The notes below the pieces were generated by a model. It made no database searches and had not been told where the DNA came from. It saw nothing but the letters and a program-made list of their open reading frames with translations. From assembly GCA_026399025.1 (NCBI GenBank), contig JAPLRU010000111.1:1-64000 (forward strand): 64,000 nt of DNA, in the 5' to 3' direction. Made by a program: the position numbers and the translations under genes. Numbering within the stretch: position 1 is the stretch's first letter; each line of letters opens with the position of its first letter. Below, one piece after another: positions 29,785 through 54,094 of this stretch. This DNA comes from Methylobacter sp. (GTDB taxonomy: Bacteria; Pseudomonadota; Gammaproteobacteria; Methylococcales; Methylomonadaceae).

Positions 29785-30819
29785 TTAAGCGGGTAGGAAT
29801 CTTTCGCTCAGCACCTGTTTATCCGGCACCCCTTTGACTCGCGCGGCAGCTTCAGCGGCATCGATGAGTGCCGGCGGCCCACACAGGTAAATGTCGGGCC
29901 ACACCGTCGCGTCTGTCAGATCTTGAGCCAGGGCATCCACCGGAGTACCGCAAAAACCCTGCCAATGTTCATCCGGTTTCCATACGCAAAAAATCACTTG
30001 AAGCTGGGGCAGTTCCGCTTGCAGCGCTTTTAATTCGGTTTGGCAAAACAATTCTTCGGCCCGGTTTGCGCCGAAATAAAGCCGCGCCGGATGCGGTTCC
30101 TGAAATTCGGCCATGCGCCTTAACATAGACAGCATCGGCGCTAAACCGGTACCTCCGGCCACAAACCAGCGCGGTCTCAGGCCGTTTTCGGATAAACCGA
30201 ACGCGCCTTTGGGGCCGTGAACAATCAAAGTCTGTCCGATAGCCGCCTGTTCCCGCAGCCAAGTGGAAAAAAGGCCGCCGGGTTGCAGCCGGATCAAAAA
30301 TTCCAGCCGACCTTCCCAGTTGCTTATATTGGCAAGCGAATAAGCGCGCTTGATGTCTTGTCCCGGTACTTCCAGTTCCATGAACTGGCCGGGTTCGAAT
30401 TCGGCCGTGCTGCCGCCGTCTTCATTCGGCACAAGGTGCAGTTCCAAACGTAAAGTATTTTCGCCGACGGAATCGATAGCGGTAATTTCAGCGCTTCGAA
30501 TTTTGATTTCGCCAAGCAGAATACGGTCATGATCGAAAGGCAGGTCAATACGCAAAGCGCTTTTAGGAAAAGTGCAACAAAGCAGGGTTCCGCCTTTCGC
30601 CGCATCGCCTATAGGTAATGCGGCCGGGTTATGTTTGCCTAAGGTAAAGTCGCCGTCGGTGACATCGGCATAGCAGGTACCACAATTTCCTTGTCCGCAT
30701 TGGGCGGGCAATACGATATGGGCATTCGCGGCGGCTTCCAGCAGGTTTTGGTCGGGGGCGCATTCGAAACGAAGCTGTTCCCCGTCGCGCGTGGTAAGTT
30801 CAATGGCGTGAGTGGTCAT
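29785..30819 (-). CDS. MmoC-like ferredoxin/FAD/NADH reductase, probable Hcp reductase
   Basis: 344 residues. A plant-type 2Fe-2S ferredoxin domain comes first (C41, C46, C49 in CGQGNCGTC and C81 in LLCC), then an FAD domain with RAYSLAN near 160, then an NADH domain with GGTGLAP near 223 and CGPPALIDAA near 320. Order and sequence resemble MmoC, the soluble methane monooxygenase reductase (FEPGQFMELEVPG, GRLEFLIRLQPGG, YLCGPP). No hydroxylase genes are nearby; hcp is upstream on the same strand 151 bases away, so it likely supplies electrons to Hcp, the role of Hcr in enterics. Regulation by the NorR/sigma-54 promoter of hcp is plausible. Confidence 0.85.
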   Translation of the reverse strand: MTTHAIELTTRDGEQLRFECAPDQNLLEAAANAHIVLPAQCGQGNCGTCYADVTDGDFTLGKHNPAALPIGDAAKGGTLLCCTFPKSALRIDLPFDHDRILLGEIKIRSAEITAIDSVGENTLRLELHLVPNEDGGSTAEFEPGQFMELEVPGQDIKRAYSLANISNWEGRLEFLIRLQPGGLFSTWLREQAAIGQTLIVHGPKGAFGLSENGLRPRWFVAGGTGLAPMLSMLRRMAEFQEPHPARLYFGANRAEELFCQTELKALQAELPQLQVIFCVWKPDEHWQGFCGTPVDALAQDLTDATVWPDIYLCGPPALIDAAEAAARVKGVPDKQVLSERFLPA

Positions 30820-30970
30820 GATTTGATTGAGTTCCGCAAAAAAATGCTGCCGGAAACACGATAAATATTCAGGTTTTCCTCTCTTTGAACAAGAGGGATT
30901 GCAAAGAGAGGGGAGGACTGAATTGTTACAAAAGCTTAGGTGTTTACGGCAGCGGAGGAAAGGAATTGAA

Positions 30971-32638
30971 TTAAGCGGCTTTACGCGTCAGCGAAGCTTC
31001 AATGTCGGCCTGCGCGGTGGTAATGGGTTGCAAGCCGAATTTATCCACCAACACCTGTACCAGATTGGGTGTCAGGAAGGCGGGCAAGGTGGGGCCAAGA
31101 CGAATATTACGGATACCCAAGGCCAATAAAGTCAGCAGTACGGCGGCGGCTTTTTGCTCAAACCATGATACGACCAAAGACAACGGCAACTCGTTGACGC
31201 CGCATTCAAACGCTCCGGCCAGCGCGGTGGCAATTTTAATCGCCGAATAGCTGTCGTTGCATTGGCCTAAGTCCAATAAGCGCGGAATGCCGCCGATGTC
31301 GCCGAAGTCATGCTGGTTAAAGCGGTATTTGGCGCAGCCCAAAGTCATGACCACGGTGTTTTGCGGAGCCTGTTCGGCAAATTCGGTGTAGTAATTGCGA
31401 CCGGGCGCGGCGCCGTCGCAACCGCCGACTAAGAAGAAATGCTGAATAGCGCCGGATTTAACCGCGTCGATCACTTTGTCGGCGACGCCCAACACGGCAT
31501 CGCGGCCGAAACCGACGGTGATGAATTTTTCGCTGAGGTCTTCTTTAAAACCGGGCAATGCATTGGCGGCTTGAATTAACGGCGCAAAATTTTTGTCGCT
31601 GATATGGCGTACACCGGGCCAACCAACCGGGCCTGCGGTAAAAATACGCTGGCGGTATTGAGCTTGCGGTTCAATGATGCAATTAGAGGTCATCAAAATA
31701 GCGCCTGGGAAGTCGGCAAATTCTTTTTGTTGATCCTGCCAAGCGCCGCCGTAATTGCCGACCAAATGCGGATAAGCCTTGAGTTTCGGGTACGCGTGGG
31801 CAGGCAGCATTTCACCGTGAGTATAGATATTGATACCGCTGTCTTTGGTTTGCTCCAATAAAGCGGCCAGATCGCCCAGATCGTGGCCTGATACCAAAAT
31901 GGCTTTGCCTTTGACCGGAGTGGTGCGTACTTGAGTCGGCTGTTGTGCGCCGAAAGTGCCGGTGTTGGCTTCATCCAATAACGCCATCACGGTCAGGTTT
32001 AAAGTACCCAGCGCCATAGACTGGTTCAGCAGGGCTTCGACGTCGGTAGGATCCGTGCTCAAAAAATCCAAGGCATCTTCGATTCCGGCATAAACGTCTT
32101 CGCTTTCCTTACCCAGTACATAGGCATGGTGAGCATAAGCGCAAACGCCTTTGAGGCCGTAAAGTACCAATGAACGCAAGCCGATAATGTCCGCGCCGAC
32201 TTGGTCGAGCCCGGCATTGATACCCACATCGGCGGCTTGTTTGAGCATTCCGTCCATGTCGGCGGCAGGCTGCCAAGCGGCGGCGCCGGTAAGTTGTTCA
32301 GGCGTTTCTCCGCTGGCAAGACAGGCTCCGATGTAGCTCGCTTTCACTCGATCCCGTATCTGCGCGGCTTGTTGTATCATCGTAACGAAGCGAGTCGCAT
32401 TGAAATTCACGTTGGTTAAGGTGGTGAACATTGCGTAGAGGATGAAATCGTCGGCGGCATTATCCGGAGCATTCAACGCACGAGCACGTTTGGCGTATTG
32501 GGCTATGCCTTTAACGCCGTGAACCAGTAAATCCTGTAAATCGGACGTTGTGGCGTCTTTGCCGCACATGCCTTTGGCAGTAGCGCAACCGCTGTCGGCA
32601 TTGGAGCGGTCGGTTTGTTCGCATTGGTAACAAAACAT
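30971..32638 (-). CDS. hcp: Hybrid cluster protein (hydroxylamine/NO reductase)
   Basis: 555 residues. Hcp reduces hydroxylamine or nitric oxide at a hybrid Fe-S-O cluster and protects against nitrosative stress. The N-terminal cysteines C3, C6, C18 and C25 (MFCYQCEQ ... [12 protein letters not shown]) match the E. coli type class that binds a 2Fe-2S or 4Fe-4S cluster. Downstream motifs [54 protein letters not shown] and [13 protein letters not shown] provide the hybrid-cluster ligands. It has a sigma-54 promoter and is divergent from norR; an MmoC-like reductase follows. Confidence 0.96.
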
Positions 32639-32730
32639 CAGGTACTCTCCTCGAGATTAAATTGTGTTGGTGACTATGAACAGGTAGTGTTTTTTCCGGT
32701 TAATTGGATTCTTCCAATGAAATAGATAAA

Positions 32731-32747
32731 AGCACTTACTATGCCAA
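32731..32747 (-). promoter_or_regulatory. Sigma-54 promoter of hcp
   Basis: On the minus strand TTGGCATAGTAAGTGCT places GG at -24 and GC at -12 with the exact 12-base register required by RpoN. It lies about 95 bases before the hcp start, next to norR, which encodes a sigma-54 activator. A GT-N7-AC element (32789-32799) upstream could be part of a NorR enhancer. Confidence 0.75.
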
Positions 32748-32838
32748 TCGAAAAACCTTGTGTTTACTGGCTTAGTCAGAGTATTGTTGTTCTATTGACA
32801 TCGCTTTAAGTTGTTTAATTAACATCAACGTTATCATT

Positions 32839-34389
32839 ATGACGACAAACTTGTTTTTTACCTCGTTGATTTCCATTGTCGCCGACTTGTCCACAAACAT
32901 GTCGGCGGAACAACGCTATCAACGTTTGTTAGCGCATTTGTGCCGGATTTTTCCTTGCGACGCGTCCGCGCTGCTCAAATTCGAAAACCAGTGTTTGATA
33001 CCGTTGGCGGTTAACGGTTTATCGGAAGATACTCTGGGGCGGCGATTTATGGTCAGTGAGCACCCGCGCCTGGCGCAGATTTTAGCTGCCGATCAATCGC
33101 TACGCTTTCCCGCCGATTCCGAGTTGCCCGATCCCTATGACGGACTCATTGAATCGGATAACGATCAGCTGCTGGTGCATGATTGCATGGGAGCTACGCT
33201 GTTTATCGATGGCGAGCCCTGGGGTGTTTTAACGTTGGATGCGCTGACTCCGGGTATTTTTGACCATATCGACCCGATACAGCTGAATACGTTTATCAGC
33301 TTGACGGCGGCGACCGTCAAGGCGGCGGGCTTGATTGCCTCTTTGGAGCAGCGGGTGCGTTATGTGACTCAAACCTTATTTAAAGAAAATACCAATCGCG
33401 ACATGATCGGCGACAGCGAATGCATGAGGAAATTGCGCAATGAAATTTCCATTGTCGCACCGTCGGAATTGGCGGTTTTAATTTTGGGCGAAACGGGAGT
33501 GGGGAAAGAATTGGTTGCCCAGCGTATTCATCTGGAATCGAATCGCGCCGATCAAGTTATGGTTTATGTCAATTGCGCGGCATTACCCGAGAGCATCGCC
33601 GAGAGCGAATTATTCGGTCATAGCAAAGGCGCGTTTTCCGGCGCTATCAGCGATCGAACCGGTAAATTCGAGTTGGCTAACGGCGGCACGATTTTTTTGG
33701 ATGAAATCGGCGAACTGCCGCTTTCCATTCAGGCTAAGTTATTGCGTACTTTGCAAAACGGCGAGATACAGCGCGTCGGCAGCGATAAACAAATCAAAGT
33801 CAATGTGCGGGTTATTGCCGCCACCAACCGCAATCTGCAACAAGAGGTTGCTGCGGGCTTGTTCCGGCCGGATCTTTATCATCGTTTGGCCGTTTATCCG
33901 ATGCATGTTCCGGCATTGCGCGAACGGGGAAAGGACGTTTTATTGCTGGCTGGGGCCTTTTTGGAAAAAAATCAGCAGCGTTTAGGCATTAAAAAATTGC
34001 GTTTGGATCAAGACGCCAAGAAAGCTTTATTGGCATACAGCTGGCCGGGCAATATCCGTGAATTGGAGCATTTACTCAGCCGGGCCGCATTAAAGTCAGC
34101 GACTCCGGACAATCGACAAGCAAATTTTATAACCATATCCTTAGCTTACTTGGATATAGTACCGGAGCCGTTCGATGATGCGCATATCAGTACCGCTCCG
34201 GATTCACCGGCGGCGCCCTCCTCGCCGATAAATTTTAAAAATGCAGTGGATGAGTTTCAGCGTCAACTTATTCAGCAACAGCTTGTTGAGCAACAGGGTA
34301 ATATGGCTGCTACGGCACGCATCTTGGGACTTGATCGAGGCAATTTTCACCGCTTATTAAAACGCTTAGCCATTAAAGCCGAAATCTGA
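32839..34389 (+). CDS. norR: NorR-type nitric oxide-responsive sigma-54 activator
   Basis: 516 residues. An N-terminal GAF domain (residues about 20-170), which in NorR senses NO through a mononuclear iron, is followed by an AAA+ sigma-54 interaction domain: Walker A GETGVGKE near 217, the loop GAFSGA near 264 (canonical GAFTGA with Ser for Thr), Walker B GGTIFLDEIGELP near 280-292. The C-terminal Fis-type helix-turn-helix is NMAATARILGLDRGNFHRLL near 490-510. It is transcribed away from hcp, which carries a sigma-54 promoter, so hcp is the obvious target. Confidence 0.93.
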   Translation: MTTNLFFTSLISIVADLSTNMSAEQRYQRLLAHLCRIFPCDASALLKFENQCLIPLAVNGLSEDTLGRRFMVSEHPRLAQILAADQSLRFPADSELPDPYDGLIESDNDQLLVHDCMGATLFIDGEPWGVLTLDALTPGIFDHIDPIQLNTFISLTAATVKAAGLIASLEQRVRYVTQTLFKENTNRDMIGDSECMRKLRNEISIVAPSELAVLILGETGVGKELVAQRIHLESNRADQVMVYVNCAALPESIAESELFGHSKGAFSGAISDRTGKFELANGGTIFLDEIGELPLSIQAKLLRTLQNGEIQRVGSDKQIKVNVRVIAATNRNLQQEVAAGLFRPDLYHRLAVYPMHVPALRERGKDVLLLAGAFLEKNQQRLGIKKLRLDQDAKKALLAYSWPGNIRELEHLLSRAALKSATPDNRQANFITISLAYLDIVPEPFDDAHISTAPDSPAAPSSPINFKNAVDEFQRQLIQQQLVEQQGNMAATARILGLDRGNFHRLLKRLAIKAEI

Positions 34390-38019: not shown

Positions 38020-39642
38020 ATGGCCATAAATCTCACGTCAAAAAAAATATTGATTGCCGAAGCTCACGCAAACTTACGCGAAACAATCAAACATATATTT
38101 GGGTCGCTGGGCGCCAGGTTTATTGTTGAGGCGGAATCGGGCGTCGACGCCATCGCGGCGATGAAAAAAGACAAGTTCGATATTGTGCTTTGCGATTACG
38201 ATTTGCTAGGTAAAAAAACCGGGCAACAGGTTTTGGATGAGGCTAAACACCTTAAGTTATTGCCGGTCAATGCCATCTTTATGATTGCGACCGATGAGCA
38301 TCGTTTGGGTTTGGCACCTAACGCTGTCGATAACAAACCCGACGATTACCTGATCAAGCCGTTTAGCTTAAAACAGGTTTCAAGCCTTCTTGAAAAATGC
38401 GATAACCGTAAGCGATTTTTGGCCGGCATTGAAAACGAAATAGACAGCGGCAATCTTTTTCAAGCCATACGCAATTGCGAAAAGATGCTTGAGCTTGATA
38501 ATAAAAGCATGCACTTGCAATTATTAAAAATGCAGGCTGAATTGAGCATCAAGGTGGGCGACTTTAAGACGGCCGCGAAGGTTTATCAAGATATTCTGGA
38601 TAAAAGAGAGCTGCCCTGGGCCCGATTGGGCTTGGGTGTTGTGGCCTATTGTCTTGCCGATTACGATAACGCGGTTAACACTTTTCAGGGGCTGATCAAA
38701 CAATACCCGGCCATGTTGGAGGCTTACGATTGGCAGGTAAAAGCATACGAGGCTATGGGCAACGACCGGTTGGCTTTATCTTCAATCAACGCTGCCGTTA
38801 CGCTTGCGCCGCAGTCCATTTTAAGACAAAAGAAGCTGGCCATGCTGGCTGATAAAACTGACAATATCGACCTTGCCCAAAAAGCCTATACCGCAATTAT
38901 TGAGTTAGGCAAAAATTCCATTCACAGATCATTCTCCGATTATTCGGGCTTGGCCAATACTTATTTAAAAAGCAATGCAGCCGACAAGGCCTTAGAAATA
39001 GCGGTTAAAATGGCTCAGCAGTTTAAAGCCGATCCTGAAGCAAAACTAAGGGCCGCTCTGTTGGAGATCGAAATTTATCGGGAAAAAGGCAATGAGCGCT
39101 TGGTTGAGCGCGCTTATAATAAAATATGCGAATTGAACGGACAGCTTAACAAACAGCTACCCAGAGAATTACGGCTGAACATGGCCAAGATTTTTTGCCT
39201 GAATGACAATCGTGAAGCCTGCGATGAGATTCTTAACGATTTAGTTAAAACCTATGTTGACGATAAACTTTTCATGAAAGAGACTGTCGCTCTGTGTAAC
39301 GAACTTATCGGCGAAAATTATGTAGAAACGCTGGTCGAGTCGCTAACCCAGGAATTGGTCGACTTCAACAAGGAAGCCGCTAAGTTGTTTAAAAAAGGCG
39401 ACATTAGAGGCGCGCGCGGAGTTTTTGAGCAAATCGCCGCGAAAAGACCGAATAATCCTAAAGTCATTTTAAATCTGATAAAAATCATTCTTCATGATAT
39501 TAAAACGTCCGGCGCCAGTCCGGAAAAAATTATCAGTACGCAATCCTATATCAATACAGCTATTCAACTCGGCATAGCTCACGATCAAATCAGTGTTTTG
39601 CAAACGGCACTGGACACTTTTAAAAACGAAATCGAGCAATAA
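38020..39642 (+). CDS. CheY receiver-TPR response regulator, copy 1
   Basis: 540 residues, cytoplasmic. A CheY-like receiver (residues 1-125) has the phospho-acceptor Asp59 in VLCDYDL and Lys in LIKPF, but the acidic metal pocket at residues 14-15 reads Glu-Ala where the second copy has Glu-Asp. The rest is a TPR superhelix (LGLGVVAYCLADYDNAVNTF, GDIRGARGVFEQIAAKRPNN and others). There is no DNA-binding domain, so output is by protein contact. A 9-base gap couples it to the minimal kinase downstream. The pair is duplicated at 40405-42723. Target unknown. Confidence 0.9.
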   Translation: MAINLTSKKILIAEAHANLRETIKHIFGSLGARFIVEAESGVDAIAAMKKDKFDIVLCDYDLLGKKTGQQVLDEAKHLKLLPVNAIFMIATDEHRLGLAPNAVDNKPDDYLIKPFSLKQVSSLLEKCDNRKRFLAGIENEIDSGNLFQAIRNCEKMLELDNKSMHLQLLKMQAELSIKVGDFKTAAKVYQDILDKRELPWARLGLGVVAYCLADYDNAVNTFQGLIKQYPAMLEAYDWQVKAYEAMGNDRLALSSINAAVTLAPQSILRQKKLAMLADKTDNIDLAQKAYTAIIELGKNSIHRSFSDYSGLANTYLKSNAADKALEIAVKMAQQFKADPEAKLRAALLEIEIYREKGNERLVERAYNKICELNGQLNKQLPRELRLNMAKIFCLNDNREACDEILNDLVKTYVDDKLFMKETVALCNELIGENYVETLVESLTQELVDFNKEAAKLFKKGDIRGARGVFEQIAAKRPNNPKVILNLIKIILHDIKTSGASPEKIISTQSYINTAIQLGIAHDQISVLQTALDTFKNEIEQ

Positions 39643-39651
39643 TCCGCCAAA

Positions 39652-40338
39652 ATGTCCAATACTTCTATGCTTTCAATCAATTTTCCTTCTCTTCTAACCT
39701 CTTCAGTGCATGATATAAAGAATTCATTGAGAGTGCTTCGAACCCTTCATGCCCAGCTTGAAAGCATCTATCAAGATAAAAAACATATTGAATTCAAACA
39801 ATTGGAGTTTGAAGCGAATCGTATGAACAATAGCTTGATGCAGTTATTGACGCTTTATAAAATCGACTTCGCCCAATACAGCCTGACCATAGACGAACAC
39901 AGCGCCGCTGAGCTATTGGAGGATATCGTCAATCAGCATTCCACTTTATTATCCTTAGGCGACATTCAACTGATCACGGAATGCGATAGCGATTTGCTTT
40001 GTTATTGCGACAGCACCTTGATCAGCAATGCGCTTTGCACATTAGTCAACAACGCGCAGCGCTATTGCTTGAGCAAAGTACTGTTATCCGCAACTCAGGA
40101 AGACGATTATGTGGTTTTTTGCATCGAAGATGACAGCAGCGGTTATCCGGAAAATCTTCTGACCTCCGATTGCAAAAAACTTCCCGAGCTTGATATGACG
40201 ACCGGTAATACCGGCTTAGGCTTGTTTTTTGCGGAGACCGTTGCTCAATTACATGTTCAAGCCGACAAGCGGGGTTTTATTATGACCGACAATAACAGCC
40301 GGTTCGGCGGTTCCAGATTTAAACTTTATTTACCCTAA
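39652..40338 (+). CDS. Minimal cytoplasmic histidine kinase, copy 1
   Basis: 228 residues, no membrane segment and no sensor domain. A HisKA-like helix carries the phospho-accepting His in SVHDIKNSL near residue 20, followed by an HATPase domain: N box NALCTLVNNAQRY near 123, a G1-like EDDSSGYPE near 158, and G2 GNTGLGLFFAETVAQLH near 185. The conserved partner is the CheY-TPR protein encoded 9 bases upstream. Because it lacks a sensor, its input probably comes through a partner or through the TPR protein. Copy 2 lies at 42037. Confidence 0.85.
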   Translation: MSNTSMLSINFPSLLTSSVHDIKNSLRVLRTLHAQLESIYQDKKHIEFKQLEFEANRMNNSLMQLLTLYKIDFAQYSLTIDEHSAAELLEDIVNQHSTLLSLGDIQLITECDSDLLCYCDSTLISNALCTLVNNAQRYCLSKVLLSATQEDDYVVFCIEDDSSGYPENLLTSDCKKLPELDMTTGNTGLGLFFAETVAQLHVQADKRGFIMTDNNSRFGGSRFKLYLP

Positions 40339-40404
40339 CTGTTGCGATCATTAAGGTTCAAGCCAAATCCAACAGCTAAGCAATAAAGTTAAAATTGATC
40401 CCTT

Positions 40405-42027
40405 ATGGCTATAAACCTTACGTCAAAAAAGATATTGGTCGTCGAAGACCAAGCAATCATGCGCGAAACCATCAAACATATATTGGGCGCATTTGGCGCC
40501 CGGTTTATCGTTGAGGCGGAAAACGGCATCAACGCAATCACAGCGATGAGAATTGACAAGTTCGATATTGTGCTTTGCGATTACAACCTGCTCAGGGGGA
40601 AAAACGGTCAGCAGGTTCTGGAAGAAGCCCGGTTTCTTAAGCTATTGCCGGTCAGTGCCATCTTTATCATGGTGACCTGCGAACAAAGCCAGGAGATGGT
40701 GCTTACCGCGCTCGATAACAAACCCGATGACTATCTGATTAAACCTTTTAATCGGCAACAACTGTTAAGCCGTATTGAAAGATGCCATGCCCGTAAAAAA
40801 TACTTGGCCAGTGTCGAAAATGAAATAGACAACGGCAATATTTATCAAGCCATTTACAATTGCGAAAAGCTGCTTCAACTGGATGGTAAAAAAATGCGCT
40901 TGCAATTATTAAAAATGCAAGCCGAATTGACGCTTAAGGTAGGGGATTTTAAGACTGCCGAAGAGATCTACCAGGATATTCTGCACGAAAGAGAATTGCC
41001 TTGGGCCAGGATGGGATTAGGTATTGTGGCTTTTTTTCTGGGCTATTACGATCAGGCTATTAAGATTTTTCAGGATCTTATCGAACAATATCCGGTGATG
41101 CTGGAAGCTTATGATTGGTTGGTTAAAGCGCAAGAATCTCTCGGTAACGATGAGCATGCTTTATCCTCGCTTAATTCAGCTGTTTTGCTTTCTCCGCAGT
41201 CCATCTTAAGACAAAAAAAATTGGCCGTCTTAGCGGATAAAACCGACAATCTGTCTCTTGCCAAGAAAGCCTACACGGCCACCATTAAACTGGGTAAAAA
41301 CTCTATCCATCGGTCCTCCGGCGACTATTCGGGTTTGGCCAATGTTTATTTAAAAAGCAACGCGGCCAGCGAAGCACTCAAAGTACTGTATGAGCTGAAT
41401 CAGCAGTTTCACAATGATCCTGAAGCCAAGATCAGAGCCGCCTTGCTGGAAACCGAGATTCATCAGACCAAAGGCAATAAAGCGCTGGCCCAGCAAGCCT
41501 ATAACAAAGCGTTTAAACTCAGCGAACAATTTAACCGGCAGATCTCCAGGGAACTGCGCCTGGAAATGGCCAAGATTTTTCATCTGAACGGGAACGGCGA
41601 AATTTGCGACGAAATTCTTAACGATCTTGTTAAAACCAACATTGACGACAAAGCCTTTATCAAGAATCTGGTAACCATGTGCGACGCCGTCATCGGCGAC
41701 AATTATGCCGAAACATTGATCCAGCATATAAAAAAAGAATTGGTCGACATTAATAATAAAGGCGTCGGATTATTCCAGGAAGGCAACATTAAAGAGGCTC
41801 TGGCGGTCTTTGAAAAGGCCATTATAAAGATGCCCGATAATCACACTATCCTGTTAAATATGATAAAAATCATCATTCATGACATTAAAACGTCTAAACC
41901 CGATCCGGAAAAAATCATGAGTGCCCAAGCCTATATTAATAGAGCCATTCAACTCGGCATACCTCACAATCAAATCAGCGGCTTGCAAACGGAGCTGGAC
42001 ACTATTCAATATAAATCTCACCAATAG
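40405..42027 (+). CDS. CheY receiver-TPR response regulator, copy 2
   Basis: 540 residues, the same length as copy 1 and alike throughout: the N-terminal MAINLTSKKIL, VLCDYNL with Asp59, LPWARMGLGIVAFFLGYYDQAI, and the terminal TPR helices. Here the receiver has the full acidic pair (residues 14-15 Glu-Asp in VVEDQAIMRET), so it should be able to bind Mg and be phosphorylated normally. The 9-base spacer to the next kinase and the spacer sequence itself resemble copy 1, so the whole two-gene unit was duplicated. Confidence 0.9.
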   Translation: MAINLTSKKILVVEDQAIMRETIKHILGAFGARFIVEAENGINAITAMRIDKFDIVLCDYNLLRGKNGQQVLEEARFLKLLPVSAIFIMVTCEQSQEMVLTALDNKPDDYLIKPFNRQQLLSRIERCHARKKYLASVENEIDNGNIYQAIYNCEKLLQLDGKKMRLQLLKMQAELTLKVGDFKTAEEIYQDILHERELPWARMGLGIVAFFLGYYDQAIKIFQDLIEQYPVMLEAYDWLVKAQESLGNDEHALSSLNSAVLLSPQSILRQKKLAVLADKTDNLSLAKKAYTATIKLGKNSIHRSSGDYSGLANVYLKSNAASEALKVLYELNQQFHNDPEAKIRAALLETEIHQTKGNKALAQQAYNKAFKLSEQFNRQISRELRLEMAKIFHLNGNGEICDEILNDLVKTNIDDKAFIKNLVTMCDAVIGDNYAETLIQHIKKELVDINNKGVGLFQEGNIKEALAVFEKAIIKMPDNHTILLNMIKIIIHDIKTSKPDPEKIMSAQAYINRAIQLGIPHNQISGLQTELDTIQYKSHQ

Positions 42028-42036
42028 CCCATCAAA

Positions 42037-42723
42037 ATGCCTAATAATCAAATGCTTTCAATTGGTTTTCCCGCCATTTTGGCTTCTTCAGTGCATGACA
42101 TAAAAAACTCTTTAACCGCTCTTCGCGCATTGCTCAGCCAGCTTGAGAATATTTATCAAGATCCTAAGCCTAATGAATTTAAACACTTAGAATTTGAAAC
42201 CAATCGCATGAACAGTAGCCTGATGCAGTTACTGACATTGTATAAAATCGATTTATCTCAATTTAGTTTGGCTATAGACGAACATAGGGCCGCCGACATC
42301 GTGGAAGATATTGTCGCCCAGCAATCGACCTTATTATCTTTAAGCAATATTGAACTGATTACCCAATGCGATGGCGAACTGTTTTGTTATTGCGACAGCA
42401 CCCTGATCAGCAATGCGCTTTGCACCTTAGTCAACAACTCGCAACGTTATTGCTTGAGCAAAGTTCTACTTTCTGTGACCCAGGAGAATGATTATATTGT
42501 TTTTAGCATCGAAGACGACGGCATGGGTTATCCGGAGAACCTGATATCGTCCGATTATAAGCAGGTTCCCCAGCTTGATCTGGTGACCGGCAATACCGGC
42601 TTGGGCTTGTTTTTTGCCGAAACCATTGCGCAATTGCATGTTCAAGGTCAAAGCCGGGGCTTTATCGTTACCGACAACGGCAGTCAGTTCGGCGGGGCCA
42701 GATTTAAGCTGTATTTGCCCTAA
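42037..42723 (+). CDS. Minimal cytoplasmic histidine kinase, copy 2
   Basis: 228 residues, aligned end to end with copy 1: SVHDIKNSLTALRALLSQ phospho-His region, NALCTLVNNSQRY N box, EDDGMGYPE G1 box (closer to the DxGxG consensus than copy 1) and GNTGLGLFFAETIAQLH. No sensor or membrane segment. It ends 34 bases from the convergent holA gene. Whether the two kinases cross-talk with the two regulators cannot be read from sequence. Confidence 0.85.
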   Translation: MPNNQMLSIGFPAILASSVHDIKNSLTALRALLSQLENIYQDPKPNEFKHLEFETNRMNSSLMQLLTLYKIDLSQFSLAIDEHRAADIVEDIVAQQSTLLSLSNIELITQCDGELFCYCDSTLISNALCTLVNNSQRYCLSKVLLSVTQENDYIVFSIEDDGMGYPENLISSDYKQVPQLDLVTGNTGLGLFFAETIAQLHVQGQSRGFIVTDNGSQFGGARFKLYLP

Positions 42724-47612: not shown

Positions 47613-48395
47613 ATGCGCAGAGTCATTTTCAATCAGAAAGGCGGCGTCGGCAAATCGACTATTACGTGCAATTTGGCCGCCATCAGCGCTGTTGAAGGTA
47701 AACGCACCTTAGTTATCGATCTCGATGTTCAGGGTAATTCCACCCAATATCTGCTCGGCAATAAAGTCAGCGATAGCGATAAAACCATTGCCCATTTTTT
47801 TAAAGACTGCCTGAGCCTGTCTCTGTTTGGCGGCGGTTCATCGGGTTCCGGCCTTGACAATGCGATACATGAGACCCCGTTCCCCAATCTGTTTGTGATT
47901 GCATCCCACCCCGACCTTGAACCCTTGCAAAGCCGTTTGGAATCACGGATGAAAATCTTTAAATTGAAAGAAGCGCTGGAAAAGCTCGAAGGCTTCGATG
48001 AAATTTATATGGATACCCCGCCGATCCTGAACTTTTACAGCCAGTCCGCGTTAATCGCAGCCGAAAAATGCTTGATTCCTTTCGATTGCGATACCTTTGC
48101 CAGAGAAGCCCTGTATTCATTAATGCAAGTCGTCGCCGAAGTGAAAGCCGACCATAACCAGAATCTTGAAGTTGAAGGCATCATCGTCAACCAATATCAA
48201 AAACAGGCCAATATGCCACGCCAGATAGTCGAAGAGCTGATTGCGGAAGGATTGCCGGTGTTGGCCGCGATGATCTCGCCATCGGTTAAAGTCAGGGAAT
48301 CGCACTCGGAATCGAAACCGCTGGTGCATTATGTGCCCAATCATAAGTTGACTGACGAATATCGCGCGTTACATGCGATGATTCACGGGAGTTGA
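47613..48395 (+). CDS. Orphan ParA-family ATPase
   Basis: 260 residues. A deviant Walker A (KGGVGKSTITCNLA), Walker A' DLDVQGNSTQYLLG and Walker B IYMDTPPILNF place it in the ParA/MinD superfamily. It lacks the N-terminal helix-turn-helix of plasmid ParA, and no parB gene is nearby, so it may position some other cargo (for example a chemoreceptor or carbon-related microcompartment) rather than DNA; this is inference. GGGGAT before the start is a good SD. A 10-bp hairpin (GTTGATTTTC/GAAAATCAAC) lies across the stop codon. Confidence 0.9.
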   Translation: MRRVIFNQKGGVGKSTITCNLAAISAVEGKRTLVIDLDVQGNSTQYLLGNKVSDSDKTIAHFFKDCLSLSLFGGGSSGSGLDNAIHETPFPNLFVIASHPDLEPLQSRLESRMKIFKLKEALEKLEGFDEIYMDTPPILNFYSQSALIAAEKCLIPFDCDTFAREALYSLMQVVAEVKADHNQNLEVEGIIVNQYQKQANMPRQIVEELIAEGLPVLAAMISPSVKVRESHSESKPLVHYVPNHKLTDEYRALHAMIHGS

Positions 48396-48642
48396 TTTTC
48401 AACGAAATGGAAAATCAACTTGAACTATCAAGCGTCCGAAAATGCAGTCAATTTAACTTTTTCTAAACAGTTTTAAATTATCGGGCATTGTTGCGCCCAT
48501 TAAAATATTGCAGTTAAAGAATCGTTATTGAAAAGCCAAATGACCACAGCCGATGCTATGGCGCTTGATACTGTTGTCGCTACCCCTATCGTATTTTCGG
48601 TATTAATAAATGTGAACTTACCGGAATACAAATTGATCAAGC

Positions 48643-48984
48643 ATGAAACTTCCAAATGGAACGCGAGCGGTTATTGACATAGAAAAACTGCGTGACTACT
48701 GTTTATCCACGCAACACCCGGAAGGTCGTCATAAGGCCAGAGTATTTTTATCCGCATTGGAAATAACATCATCCGATGCGGACAAATTGCGCGAAATTCT
48801 GCTCATTGCCGCTGTGAATAACGAAGCTTTGCTAACAGGAACTGATCAATATGGTTGTCGCTATGTATTGGATGTTCTTGTAACGTGGAAGCATCGTGAA
48901 GCTATTGTTAGAAGTGCATGGATTATCAAAACGAGTGAGGATTTTCCTCGTTTAGTCAGTTGTTATGTATTGAGAGGTGGCTGA
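48643..48984 (+). CDS. DUF6883 domain protein
   Basis: 113 residues. The sequence runs KLRDYCLSTQHPEGRHKARVF, LREILLIAAVNNEALLTGTDQYGCRYVLDV and WIIKTSEDFPRLVSCYVL, the conserved DUF6883 pattern. The fold also occurs at the C-terminus of polymorphic toxins, where an enzymatic role is suspected from conserved His/Lys/Asp. ATGA overlap with the DUF4926 gene indicates a coupled pair. Toxin and antidote roles are inference. Confidence 0.8.
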   Translation: MKLPNGTRAVIDIEKLRDYCLSTQHPEGRHKARVFLSALEITSSDADKLREILLIAAVNNEALLTGTDQYGCRYVLDVLVTWKHREAIVRSAWIIKTSEDFPRLVSCYVLRGG

Positions 48985-51091: not shown

Positions 51092-54000
51092 ATGCAATCA
51101 ATCATTCATTTTTTGGATAGTAAAGACCTCATCCCTCACGGCTATTGCTTGTCTTGGAGGCCGCCACTGCTTTGGCTGCATGCGATCTCCGACCTGCTGA
51201 TCGCATTCGCTTATTACTCCATTCCGCTGATGCTGATTTATTTTATCCGGCGGCGTAAAAATTCGTTCTATCCATGGCTGGTTGTCATGTTTGCCGCCTT
51301 TATTATCGCCTGCGGCACCACCCATTTACTGTCCGCCGTTACCATTTGGATACCTTTATATTGGCTGGACGGCTGGTTTAAAGCTCTTACTGCGGCGGTT
51401 TCGCTGACTACTGCGGTGCTGATGCTGTGGGTTATGCCCCGCGCTTTAGCTTTACCCAGCACCGTGCAACTGCAAGCCGAGGTGCAACAAAGAAAAGCCG
51501 TTGAAGAGGCGCTGCGAAAAAGTCGGGCTGAACTGCAAGATGCGCAACGAATCGCTCATCTGGGCAGTTGGCAGTTGGATTTGGCGACCGGTCATGTGGT
51601 TTGGTCGGAGCAACTGTACCGAATATTCGGCTTGTGTCCGGAGTTACCGCCGCCGGATTATGCTGATTATCACAGCTTATTCTGTGCCGAGAGCTGGGAG
51701 CGGTTGAGCGTTGCCTTAGCACTGGCGCAAAAATCGGGAGTTCCTTACGCACTGGAACTTGGGATAATCAAAGGAGATGGGACGCACGGATGGATAGCGG
51801 CCCGCGGCGAAGCCATACGAGACGGCAACGGCATTATTAGCGGGCTTCACGGCATCGCCCTGGATATTAGCGAACGTAAACAGGCCGAGCAGACATTACA
51901 TCAACTGAAAGCGATGATCGATTTATCCCTGGACGGCTTTTGGATCGTCGATTTGATGGGGAACCTGCTGCAAGCTAATGAAGCTTATGCAAAAATAAGC
52001 GGCTATTCGGTTAATGAACTGGTAAAAATGCGAATCAGTCAGTTGGAAGCACTGGAAGGGCCTGAACAAATAAAAGCCCATATTGCAAAAATTGCAACGG
52101 AGGGCTATGACCTGTTCGAAACTAAACATCGCCATAAAGCGGGCCATTACCTTGATATAGAAGTCTCTGTTGCCTTCCTGCCTGAATTTCAACAGTTTTG
52201 TGTGTTTTGTCGCGACATCTCCGAGCGCAAGCGGATGGAAGAAAAACTGCGCGACAGCGATGCCTTTAATATCAGCATACTGAACTCGCTGACTTCGCAT
52301 ATCGCGGTGCTGGATGCCCAAGGTGTTATTGTTACGGTCAACGACGCTTGGCGGCAGTTTGCCAAAGAAAACGGTTTATTGGAATCCGGTCGGGCTATGC
52401 TTGGGGCTAATTATATGGACGTCTGTAAACACGGCGAAGAAGCAAATGCAGCCAAAGCCGGTATTGCGGCGGTCCTGAAGGGGGAGTCGGAAATATTCCA
52501 TTTGGAGTACGCGTGCCACTCACCCACGCAGCAACGCTGGTTTCACATGAAAGTGTCGCCTTTGCAAGGCTCACGTCACGGCGTGGTAATCAGTCATGAA
52601 AACATCACCGAGCGCAAGCTCATGGAAGAGGAACTAAAAGCCAGTGAAGCAAAATTCCGTTCGATCATTGACGTATCGCCTGTGCCGATGGCGATGCATG
52701 ATGAGTGGCACAAAATGACCTTCCTGAATCCCGCATTTATGCAAACGTTCGGTTACAGCCCGGATGACATTCCCACGGTAACGGACTGGCGAATGAAAGC
52801 CTTCCCCGATTCCGATTACCGGCACTGGGTTGAGATAACTTGGCAGGCCGCCGTGGAAAAAGCCAAACAGGAACACCATGATATTGCGCCTCTGGAAGTG
52901 GTCGTTCGCTGTAAGAACGACAACATTAAAACCGTATTGGTAACTGCCGCTTCGATTCATCACGATTTTGCAGGCGAGTGCTTAATGATACTGTACGATA
53001 TTACCCGGCTGAAACAAGCGGAGACCAAACTCAACGCCATTTTTAACGCGTCCGTCGAAGGTATTATCACAACCGATATTGACGGCAACATCCAATCCGC
53101 TAATGCTGCCGTAGAAACTATTTTCGGCTATAAACCGGAACAGCTGATAGGCTTTAGTATTAGCAAGCTTATGCCGGTCATGCATCTGGAAGGGATGTCC
53201 GCTACGGTGAAATGTATCGGACAAATTCAGGAGATTGAGGGCCGCCACAAAAACGGTTCGGTTCTGCCTTTGGAGCGGTCTGTAGCGGAGTTTTTAATTG
53301 ATGGTGCGCGCTGTTTCACCCATATTGTGCGCAATGTGAGCTTACGCAAACAGCGGGAACAGATAGACAAGCAGCATTTAGACGAACTCGCTCATGTCAC
53401 TCGTTTGGGCCTGATGGGCGAAATGGCTTCCGGCATTGCGCATGAAGTCAACCAACCGCTGGCCGCGATTTCCAGCTATGCGCAAGTCAGCTTAAATCTT
53501 GTTAACGCTGAAAATCCCGATCTGGTAAAACTTAGCGAGATCTTGTACAAAACCCAACAACAGGCCTTAAGAGCGGGCCGCATCATTCATCGGATGAGAG
53601 AATTTGTCAAATCTCATGCAAAGCATCGTTCGACCGCCGACCTTAATACGCTGATTCATTATGCGGCGGATTTATGTGTTGCCGAACTTAAACAAAGTAA
53701 TATAAAGCTGATATTTGAATTGGAACACAAGCTGCCGTCCGTTTATGTCGATCATGTTCAAATTGAACAGATTATCTTAAACCTGATCCGAAACAGCATT
53801 GATGCTTTACAAAACGTGCCCGAAAAACAACCGCGTCAGCTAACCGTCCAGAGCCATTTAACTGCCGAGAAGGTGATAGAAGTCAGAGTTAAGGACAATG
53901 GCCCCGGACTTGATGAAAATCAACAACGCCAAATCTTGACGCCTTTTTACACGACCAAGTCAGACGGTATGGGCATGGGGCTATCTATCAGCCGCTCACT

Positions 54001-54094
54001 GGTCGAAGCCCACGAAGGCAGCTTGCACTTCAATAGCCAACCCGGAAAAGGCAGCACTTTTTATTTCACATTACCGATACAGGGAAAGAACTGA
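51092..54094 (+). CDS. Histidine kinase with ethylene-receptor-like N-terminal domain
   Basis: 1000 residues. The first 125 form three membrane helices like plant ETR1: Asp34, Tyr41, Pro45, Ile71, Cys74 and His78 equal ETR1 Asp25, Tyr32, Pro36, Ile62, Cys65 and His69 with a constant offset of nine. The motifs are ISDLLIAFAYYSIPL and ACGTTHL, and the Cys/His pair binds Cu(I) in ETR1. PAS domains follow (about residues 140, 265, 390, 515 and 650), then a HisKA region with His784 in ASGIAHEVNQPLAAISS and an HATPase domain (DNGPGLDEN, MGMGLSISRSLVE). There is no receiver or output domain. SD AGGAAG precedes ATG. No partner response regulator is adjacent. Confidence 0.9.
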   Translation: MQSIIHFLDSKDLIPHGYCLSWRPPLLWLHAISDLLIAFAYYSIPLMLIYFIRRRKNSFYPWLVVMFAAFIIACGTTHLLSAVTIWIPLYWLDGWFKALTAAVSLTTAVLMLWVMPRALALPSTVQLQAEVQQRKAVEEALRKSRAELQDAQRIAHLGSWQLDLATGHVVWSEQLYRIFGLCPELPPPDYADYHSLFCAESWERLSVALALAQKSGVPYALELGIIKGDGTHGWIAARGEAIRDGNGIISGLHGIALDISERKQAEQTLHQLKAMIDLSLDGFWIVDLMGNLLQANEAYAKISGYSVNELVKMRISQLEALEGPEQIKAHIAKIATEGYDLFETKHRHKAGHYLDIEVSVAFLPEFQQFCVFCRDISERKRMEEKLRDSDAFNISILNSLTSHIAVLDAQGVIVTVNDAWRQFAKENGLLESGRAMLGANYMDVCKHGEEANAAKAGIAAVLKGESEIFHLEYACHSPTQQRWFHMKVSPLQGSRHGVVISHENITERKLMEEELKASEAKFRSIIDVSPVPMAMHDEWHKMTFLNPAFMQTFGYSPDDIPTVTDWRMKAFPDSDYRHWVEITWQAAVEKAKQEHHDIAPLEVVVRCKNDNIKTVLVTAASIHHDFAGECLMILYDITRLKQAETKLNAIFNASVEGIITTDIDGNIQSANAAVETIFGYKPEQLIGFSISKLMPVMHLEGMSATVKCIGQIQEIEGRHKNGSVLPLERSVAEFLIDGARCFTHIVRNVSLRKQREQIDKQHLDELAHVTRLGLMGEMASGIAHEVNQPLAAISSYAQVSLNLVNAENPDLVKLSEILYKTQQQALRAGRIIHRMREFVKSHAKHRSTADLNTLIHYAADLCVAELKQSNIKLIFELEHKLPSVYVDHVQIEQIILNLIRNSIDALQNVPEKQPRQLTVQSHLTAEKVIEVRVKDNGPGLDENQQRQILTPFYTTKSDGMGMGLSISRSLVEAHEGSLHFNSQPGKGSTFYFTLPIQGKN

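Follow-up and report, generated by a model that had tools for sequence, protein, structure and literature searches.

Bacterial ethylene-receptor kinases have already been published, one of them with a PAS domain (PMC11819568 and PMC7700396). In the plant receptor ETR1 (AtETR1), seven residues are required for ethylene binding (PMC11819568, PMC6682694), and copper is located at Asp25, Cys65, and His69 (PMC12643061), the latter two of which are also given as its Cu(I) ligands in PMC12744750. Lys91 in helix 3 of ETR1 is said to function in receptor output (PMC11819568), and a single cysteine in the N-terminal region has been noted for cyanobacterial receptors (PMC6682694). In Azospirillum, residues 1 to 130 of the receptor AzoEtr1 bind ethylene, the mutant is not rescued by the D35A and C75A forms of the receptor, and biofilm formation drops at 100 ppb ethylene; ethylene acts as an inhibitor of the AtETR1 kinase and, on indirect evidence, of the SynEtr1 kinase (all from PMC11819568). 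Here, we analyzed a 64,000-nucleotide stretch of Methylobacter sp. DNA (assembly GCA_026399025.1, contig JAPLRU010000111.1, positions 1 to 64,000; "the window"), in which an open reading frame (ORF) on the plus strand encodes a 1000-residue histidine kinase with an N-terminal ethylene-binding domain (EBD; ETR1_N, PF25487, in Pfam). An initial annotation had proposed an ethylene-receptor-type copper domain on this kinase and, with it, an unknown sensory route; given the published receptors, the second proposal falls away.

In a Pfam scan, ETR1_N matched the N-terminal part of the kinase far above chance (E = 2.7e-36; 124 bits against a cutoff of 27), and a genome-wide search for EBDs recovered the domain at the identical place. 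Against AtETR1, 42 of 113 aligned positions were identical. All seven ethylene-binding residues of ETR1 are kept in the window's EBD (AtETR1/window: D25/D34, Y32/Y41, I35/I44, P36/P45, I62/I71, C65/C74, and H69/H78). The residues that the initial annotation had listed at a constant offset of nine are thus all in place, and I44 is kept as well. We take AtETR1 Y32, I35, P36, and I62 to be the remaining four of the seven binding residues. When the EBD was searched against plasmid records by tblastn, 19 of 72,556 records matched, Azospirillum first; the phage records searched gave no match. In Azospirillum brasilense Sp7, L115:3980-5554 encodes a 525-residue protein that starts at the published AzoEtr1 primer sequence (PMC11819568). 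Its EBD is identical to that of the window at 71 of 140 positions (51%) and has the identical set of seven residues, with D35 and C75 aligned to D34 and C74 of the window kinase.

Across 61 genomes of the window's order (Methylococcales), we found 94 EBD places and examined 82 EBDs, the window's included. The Cys and His corresponding to Cys74 and His78 were each present in 81 of the 82, the Lys of helix 3 was present in 73, and all seven residues were present in 59. An overlapping set of 80 EBDs from named genomes gave 71 with all seven residues and 80 with the Lys. Because of the Pfam match, the seven residues, the near-invariant Cys/His pair, and the 51% identity to a tested bacterial receptor, the proposed homology to the ETR1 copper domain and the reading of its site as a Cu(I) site are strongly supported at the sequence level. 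Among the exceptions, the changed positions include Pro, Asp, Ile, and Tyr. Since 23 of the 82 EBDs have a change in at least one of the seven, some relatives may have EBDs that need not bind ethylene. Cys19 was invariant in two alignments (A1, 26 rows; A3, 59 rows) and is a possible candidate for a disulfide within the dimer.

An AlphaFold2 model of the N-terminal part (alignment of 59 sequences) has helices at residues 24 to 54, 61 to 84, and 90 to 120, with a mean predicted local distance difference test (pLDDT) score of 86 and a predicted template modeling (pTM) score of 0.70. Three N-terminal transmembrane helices are thus predicted, as in the EBD family. The segment RRRKNSFY, which joins helix 1 to helix 2, has a charge of +4; by the positive-inside rule, the N terminus would therefore lie outside and the PAS array inside. 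In the array, TIGR00229 found five PAS stretches and the Pfam PAS families up to four, and the segment borders (residues 126 to 757) were set by hand. The features of the kinase are collected in Table 1.

Table 1. Features of the window kinase and their positions in the 64,000-nucleotide window
Feature	Position	Strand	Basis
EBD-PAS-histidine kinase, 1000 residues	51092..54094	+	Open frame; Pfam ETR1_N, PAS, HisKA, HATPase_c
EBD, residues 26-121	51167..51454	+	PF25487 and helices of the AlphaFold2 model
Cys19	51146..51148	+	Lone N-terminal Cys ahead of the membrane helices
Asp34 (AtETR1 Asp25, copper site; AzoEtr1 Asp35)	51191..51193	+	Alignments
Cys74 (AtETR1 Cys65, Cu(I) ligand; AzoEtr1 Cys75), codon TGC	51311..51313	+	Alignments
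His78 (AtETR1 His69, Cu(I) ligand), codon CAT	51323..51325	+	Alignment
Lys97 (AtETR1 Lys91; AzoEtr1 Lys98), helix 3	51380..51382	+	Alignment
PAS array, about five segments, residues 126-757	51467..53362	+	TIGR00229, Pfam PAS families, per-segment identity
HisKA, residues 775-842	53414..53617	+	PF00512
Probable phospho-acceptor His784	53441..53443	+	Almost invariant in alignment A5 (32 rows)
HATPase_c, residues 887-997	53750..54082	+	PF02518

We consider it likely that the window kinase is a Cu(I)-dependent membrane ethylene receptor of the bacterial EBD-PAS-histidine kinase type that acts on an unlinked response regulator. We infer the part played by copper and ethylene, the sign of the signal, the partner, and the output as follows. 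The three N-terminal helices of the dimer would hold Cu(I) via Cys74 and His78, together with Asp34, and ethylene dissolved in the membrane would bind to the copper. The resulting shift would be relayed via helix 3, with Lys97 (the bonding partner of its ETR1 counterpart, Lys91, is presumably Asp25), and via the PAS array, where cytoplasmic signals probably feed in. The ethylene-induced shift would lower autophosphorylation of His784, after which phosphate would or would not be handed on to a response regulator whose gene lies elsewhere. The comparison with AzoEtr1 and SynEtr1 makes attachment, biofilm, or motility the likeliest outputs, ahead of a direct control over methane monooxygenase, as do sister EBD proteins in the window's genome that end in GGDEF-EAL or adjoin a receiver-HD protein.

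A genome search found four EBD proteins in the window's genome: the window kinase, a second EBD-PAS-kinase (contig C111), an EBD-PAS-GGDEF-EAL protein (C17), and an EBD-HisKA-HATPase-receiver protein (C5). Among the examined EBDs, proteins of the C17 type make up a supported branch with 17 rows (GGDEF in 17/17 and EAL in 16/17). The C17 protein itself (L034:350-3898 in G000:C17) is a candidate ethylene-linked cyclic di-GMP (c-di-GMP) enzyme and is conserved in the genus. The hybrid kinase with a receiver (L036:8424-11224 in G000:C5) is directly followed by a receiver-HD protein, and a similar hybrid EBD kinase in L079 is followed by a receiver ORF of equal length (332 residues). Domain scans of 79 EBD proteins (three of the 82 were left out) gave GGDEF in 32, EAL in 28, and HATPase_c in 47.

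Several observations weigh against an ethylene receptor with a distant partner. The first is the alteration of binding residues in the 23 EBDs mentioned above. The GGDEF-EAL sisters carry no direct information on the output of the window kinase itself. Unlike in AzoEtr1, the 3 kb on either side of the kinase yielded no receiver ORF, in a search with a custom-built receiver model over ORFs of at least 90 residues that a divergent receiver could escape; across the window, this search gave just two receiver ORFs (38020-39639 and 40405-42024), more than 9 kb away. A sequence search of the PDB gave 0 hits at E ≤ 10, and a PDB fold search gave no match at E ≤ 0.001. Because these searches gave no relative, the fold rests on the sequence and one predicted monomer. 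According to PMC12643061, crystals have been obtained neither of complete ETR1, membrane domain included, nor of its entire cytoplasmic portion.

The distribution of EBDs bears on what such a receptor would be for. Ethylene inhibits methane oxidation and is a harmful by-substrate for methane oxidizers. Conceivably, two separate lineages of aerobic methanotrophs independently acquired Cu(I)-ethylene receptors (one of them with as many as five in a genome) as a gas sense of when ambient ethylene would be converted to toxic epoxyethane by their own monooxygenase, answering via c-di-GMP, attachment, and gene expression; we regard this proposal as rather unlikely. Similarly, the receptor might serve as an early warning, a special case of the ethylene-receptor reading whose probability overlaps with it, and this, too, we consider unlikely. 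The window's genome has two matches to PF02461, our marker for pmoA/amoA, in agreement with the methane oxidizer assumed in the initial annotation. Within the order, EBDs occurred in 34/43 genomes of families f1 and f4 and in 0/18 genomes of the other families, a comparison for which the two families were chosen after the result was seen and kinship was ignored, so that P values flatter the skew; kinases per genome were uncontrolled. Up to five EBD matches over the cutoff occurred per genome, and the cultured Methylobacter tundripaludum SV96 has three or more EBD loci. Genome size was rejected as the whole cause of the skew (5/9 versus 0/14 genomes of at most 3.0 Mb; 29/34 versus 0/4 above that size).

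In a pmoA-bearing genus of alphaproteobacteria, EBDs occurred in 14/39 genomes and PF02461 in 31/39. In the surrounding taxa, EBDs were found in 0/10 genomes of other genera of the same family (f203) and in 4/32 genomes of other families (14/39 versus 4/42; P = 0.007, with kinship ignored and the groups picked after the result). The 0/10 is weakened by two f203 genomes of another genus (g335; G470 and G486) in a draw from the phylum, which do carry an EBD. In a tree of EBDs, this genus was represented by six loci of its 17 matches, which formed one branch beside other alphaproteobacterial EBDs; the tree is built on few columns, leaves 58 of its 117 inner branches open, and places AtETR1 on a long branch. 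A spread of EBDs from gammaproteobacterial to alphaproteobacterial methanotrophs was unsupported. Because the EBDs of the genus form their own branch near those of other alphaproteobacteria, the two occurrences in methanotrophs look independent. The frequency of EBDs in two methanotroph lineages with separate branches speaks for the early warning.

Other counts are less favorable to a tie with methane oxidation. The draw from the window's class yielded EBDs over the cutoff in 10/274 genomes, three of them labeled as the window's order, and the draw from the phylum yielded 28/398 (27/397 without the window's genome). In the phylum draw, 27 of the 28 EBD genomes lacked a PF02461 match; one alphaproteobacterial family (f213) accounted for eight of them, and of the three genomes with PF02461 over the cutoff, only the window's own had an EBD. 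One PF02461-free genome of this draw (G585) has three ETR1_N matches, one of which is a short fragment. Within the order, EBDs occurred in 29/51 genomes with PF02461 and 5/10 without (P = 0.74); outside families f1 and f4, PF02461 without an EBD was seen in 13 genomes. In the window's genome, EBD genes and pmoA always lie on different contigs, and the two closest pairs noticed by eye elsewhere are each more than 20 kb apart (64015 and 86350 in G023:C46; 1382540 and 1406103 in G738:C1). On these grounds, we rejected a link between EBDs and pmoA, and the connection to copper control of methane monooxygenase suggested in the initial annotation was unsupported. The genome survey it called for thus had a divided outcome: EBDs are frequent in two methanotroph lineages, and pmoA-free lineages carry them as well. 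EBDs go with lineages rather than with the methane-oxidizing enzyme itself, and they do so outside the methanotrophs as well.

Epoxyethane removal fared no better. We used comA (PF02679), a mere marker for the coenzyme M-dependent route of epoxyethane removal; the window's genome had no comA match, and EBDs were not associated with comA in the order (5/7 genomes with comA versus 29/54 without; P = 0.45) or in the alphaproteobacterial genus (5/9 versus 9/30; P = 0.24). Both the gas sense and the early warning are given lower weight because EBDs are frequent in pmoA-free lineages of the phylum draw.

The EBD could also be a vestigial membrane anchor that no longer senses, with the PAS array doing the work. 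A comparison with ten chosen full-length relatives bears on this alternative. The window's EBD was 65 to 75% identical to theirs, and the HisKA segment was 74 to 83% identical in nine of the ten; the remaining one (L061) has a different kinase core. PAS segments A to C were missing, replaced, or down to 23 to 41% identity in several of the ten, which suggests that the EBD and the kinase core have mostly been retained while PAS modules were swapped between relatives. The length and variability of the PAS array and the 23 altered EBDs among relatives would fit an anchor. However, the seven residues and Lys97 are intact in the window kinase, and the EBD is better kept than the PAS segments that would have taken over its function, and an anchor therefore seems improbable to us. 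Between the window (51467-53362) and relatives L046, L052, L054, L060, L064, and L072, PAS modules are present or absent as cassettes.

A copper sensor, in which the site would report copper supply by its apo and Cu(I)-loaded states and help to set the copper switch of methane oxidation, is very improbable. In its favor are the conserved Cu(I) ligands and the long-range rigidification of ETR1 by copper (PMC12643061). Copper is a cofactor in ETR1, however, and the window kinase keeps all seven ethylene residues, beyond the metal ligands; the presence of EBDs in the order, moreover, does not track pmoA. Cu(I) sites can bind other pi-acceptor ligands. Least probable of all, however, is that the site senses a different gas or alkene that binds copper (carbon monoxide or propylene, for example), since the homologue AzoEtr1, with the identical seven residues, binds and responds to ethylene (PMC11819568).

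An ethylene receptor thus remains our preferred reading, and what it adds to existing knowledge is the high, lineage-bound frequency of EBDs in two methanotroph groups. An ethylene response has been reported in one methanotroph, in a paper whose main text does not contain the word "receptor" (PMC11507031). Among the matches listed from the open-licence literature, no title or beginning of an abstract described ethylene receptors in methanotrophs, which does not imply absence from print. The lineage-bound frequency makes ethylene sensing by methane oxidizers directly testable: the EBD kinases are named candidates for how methanotrophs notice ethylene, and the assays used for AzoEtr1 can be applied to them. 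If true, the reading would connect plant ethylene with the methane sink of wetlands and rice fields, and the gas sense, if true, would mean that organisms which consume ethylene by accident also sense it.

The neighbors of the window kinase, named by reading, are lnt-like and cmoB/cmoA-like genes. This gene place is not conserved: among 80 fetched EBD regions, only L054 has adjoining cmoB and mlaC like the window. Between leuS and lnt (47613-48984), there is a ParA-like ATPase, identified by eye, and a DUF6883 protein. The two receiver ORFs of the window belong to a tandem duplication on the plus strand (38020-42723) of two 540-residue receiver-TPR proteins, each followed by a 228-residue protein that by eye resembles a kinase ATPase domain. 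Further upstream (29785-34389) is a cluster that by eye encodes a hybrid cluster protein with its reductase and a sigma-54 activator similar to NorR.

The window kinase resembles the known systems to different degrees. FixL shares the PAS-HisKA-HATPase part, and the FixL-like core proposed initially holds as a resemblance; as an equivalog, it does not, with 363 bits against a cutoff of 850 for the NCBIfam FixL model, and the N-terminal sensor of the window kinase is an EBD. Plant ETR1 has an EBD with the same seven residues and, after its membrane part, a GAF domain (PMC12643061), whereas the window kinase has PAS domains and no GAF match at E ≤ 1 in the Pfam scan. SynEtr1 (Slr1212 of Synechocystis PCC 6803), compared from the literature only, is likewise a bacterial ethylene receptor with histidine kinase signaling (PMC11819568, PMC6508509); it doubles as a light receptor, whereas the Pfam scan found no phytochrome-type domain in the window kinase. 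AzoEtr1 is the closest in architecture. In both proteins, the EBD is followed by PAS, HisKA, and HATPase_c, and neither carries a receiver (none in the Pfam scan of the window kinase), in line with the initial description of PAS modules and a kinase core without an output domain. The PAS-kinase parts share 98 identities over 379 aligned positions. AzoEtr1 is shorter, with 525 residues and one PAS match against 1000 residues and about five PAS segments, and a gene for a 135-residue receiver overlaps its end, in contrast to the receiver-free surroundings (within 3 kb) of the window kinase. A 131-residue receiver also overlaps the kinase ORF of the relative L072; an adjoining response regulator is a feature of AzoEtr1 rather than a trait of the whole bacterial kind. 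Judged by its sequence, the window kinase is a member of the published bacterial ethylene-receptor kinases of the AzoEtr1 type (EBD-PAS-histidine kinase).
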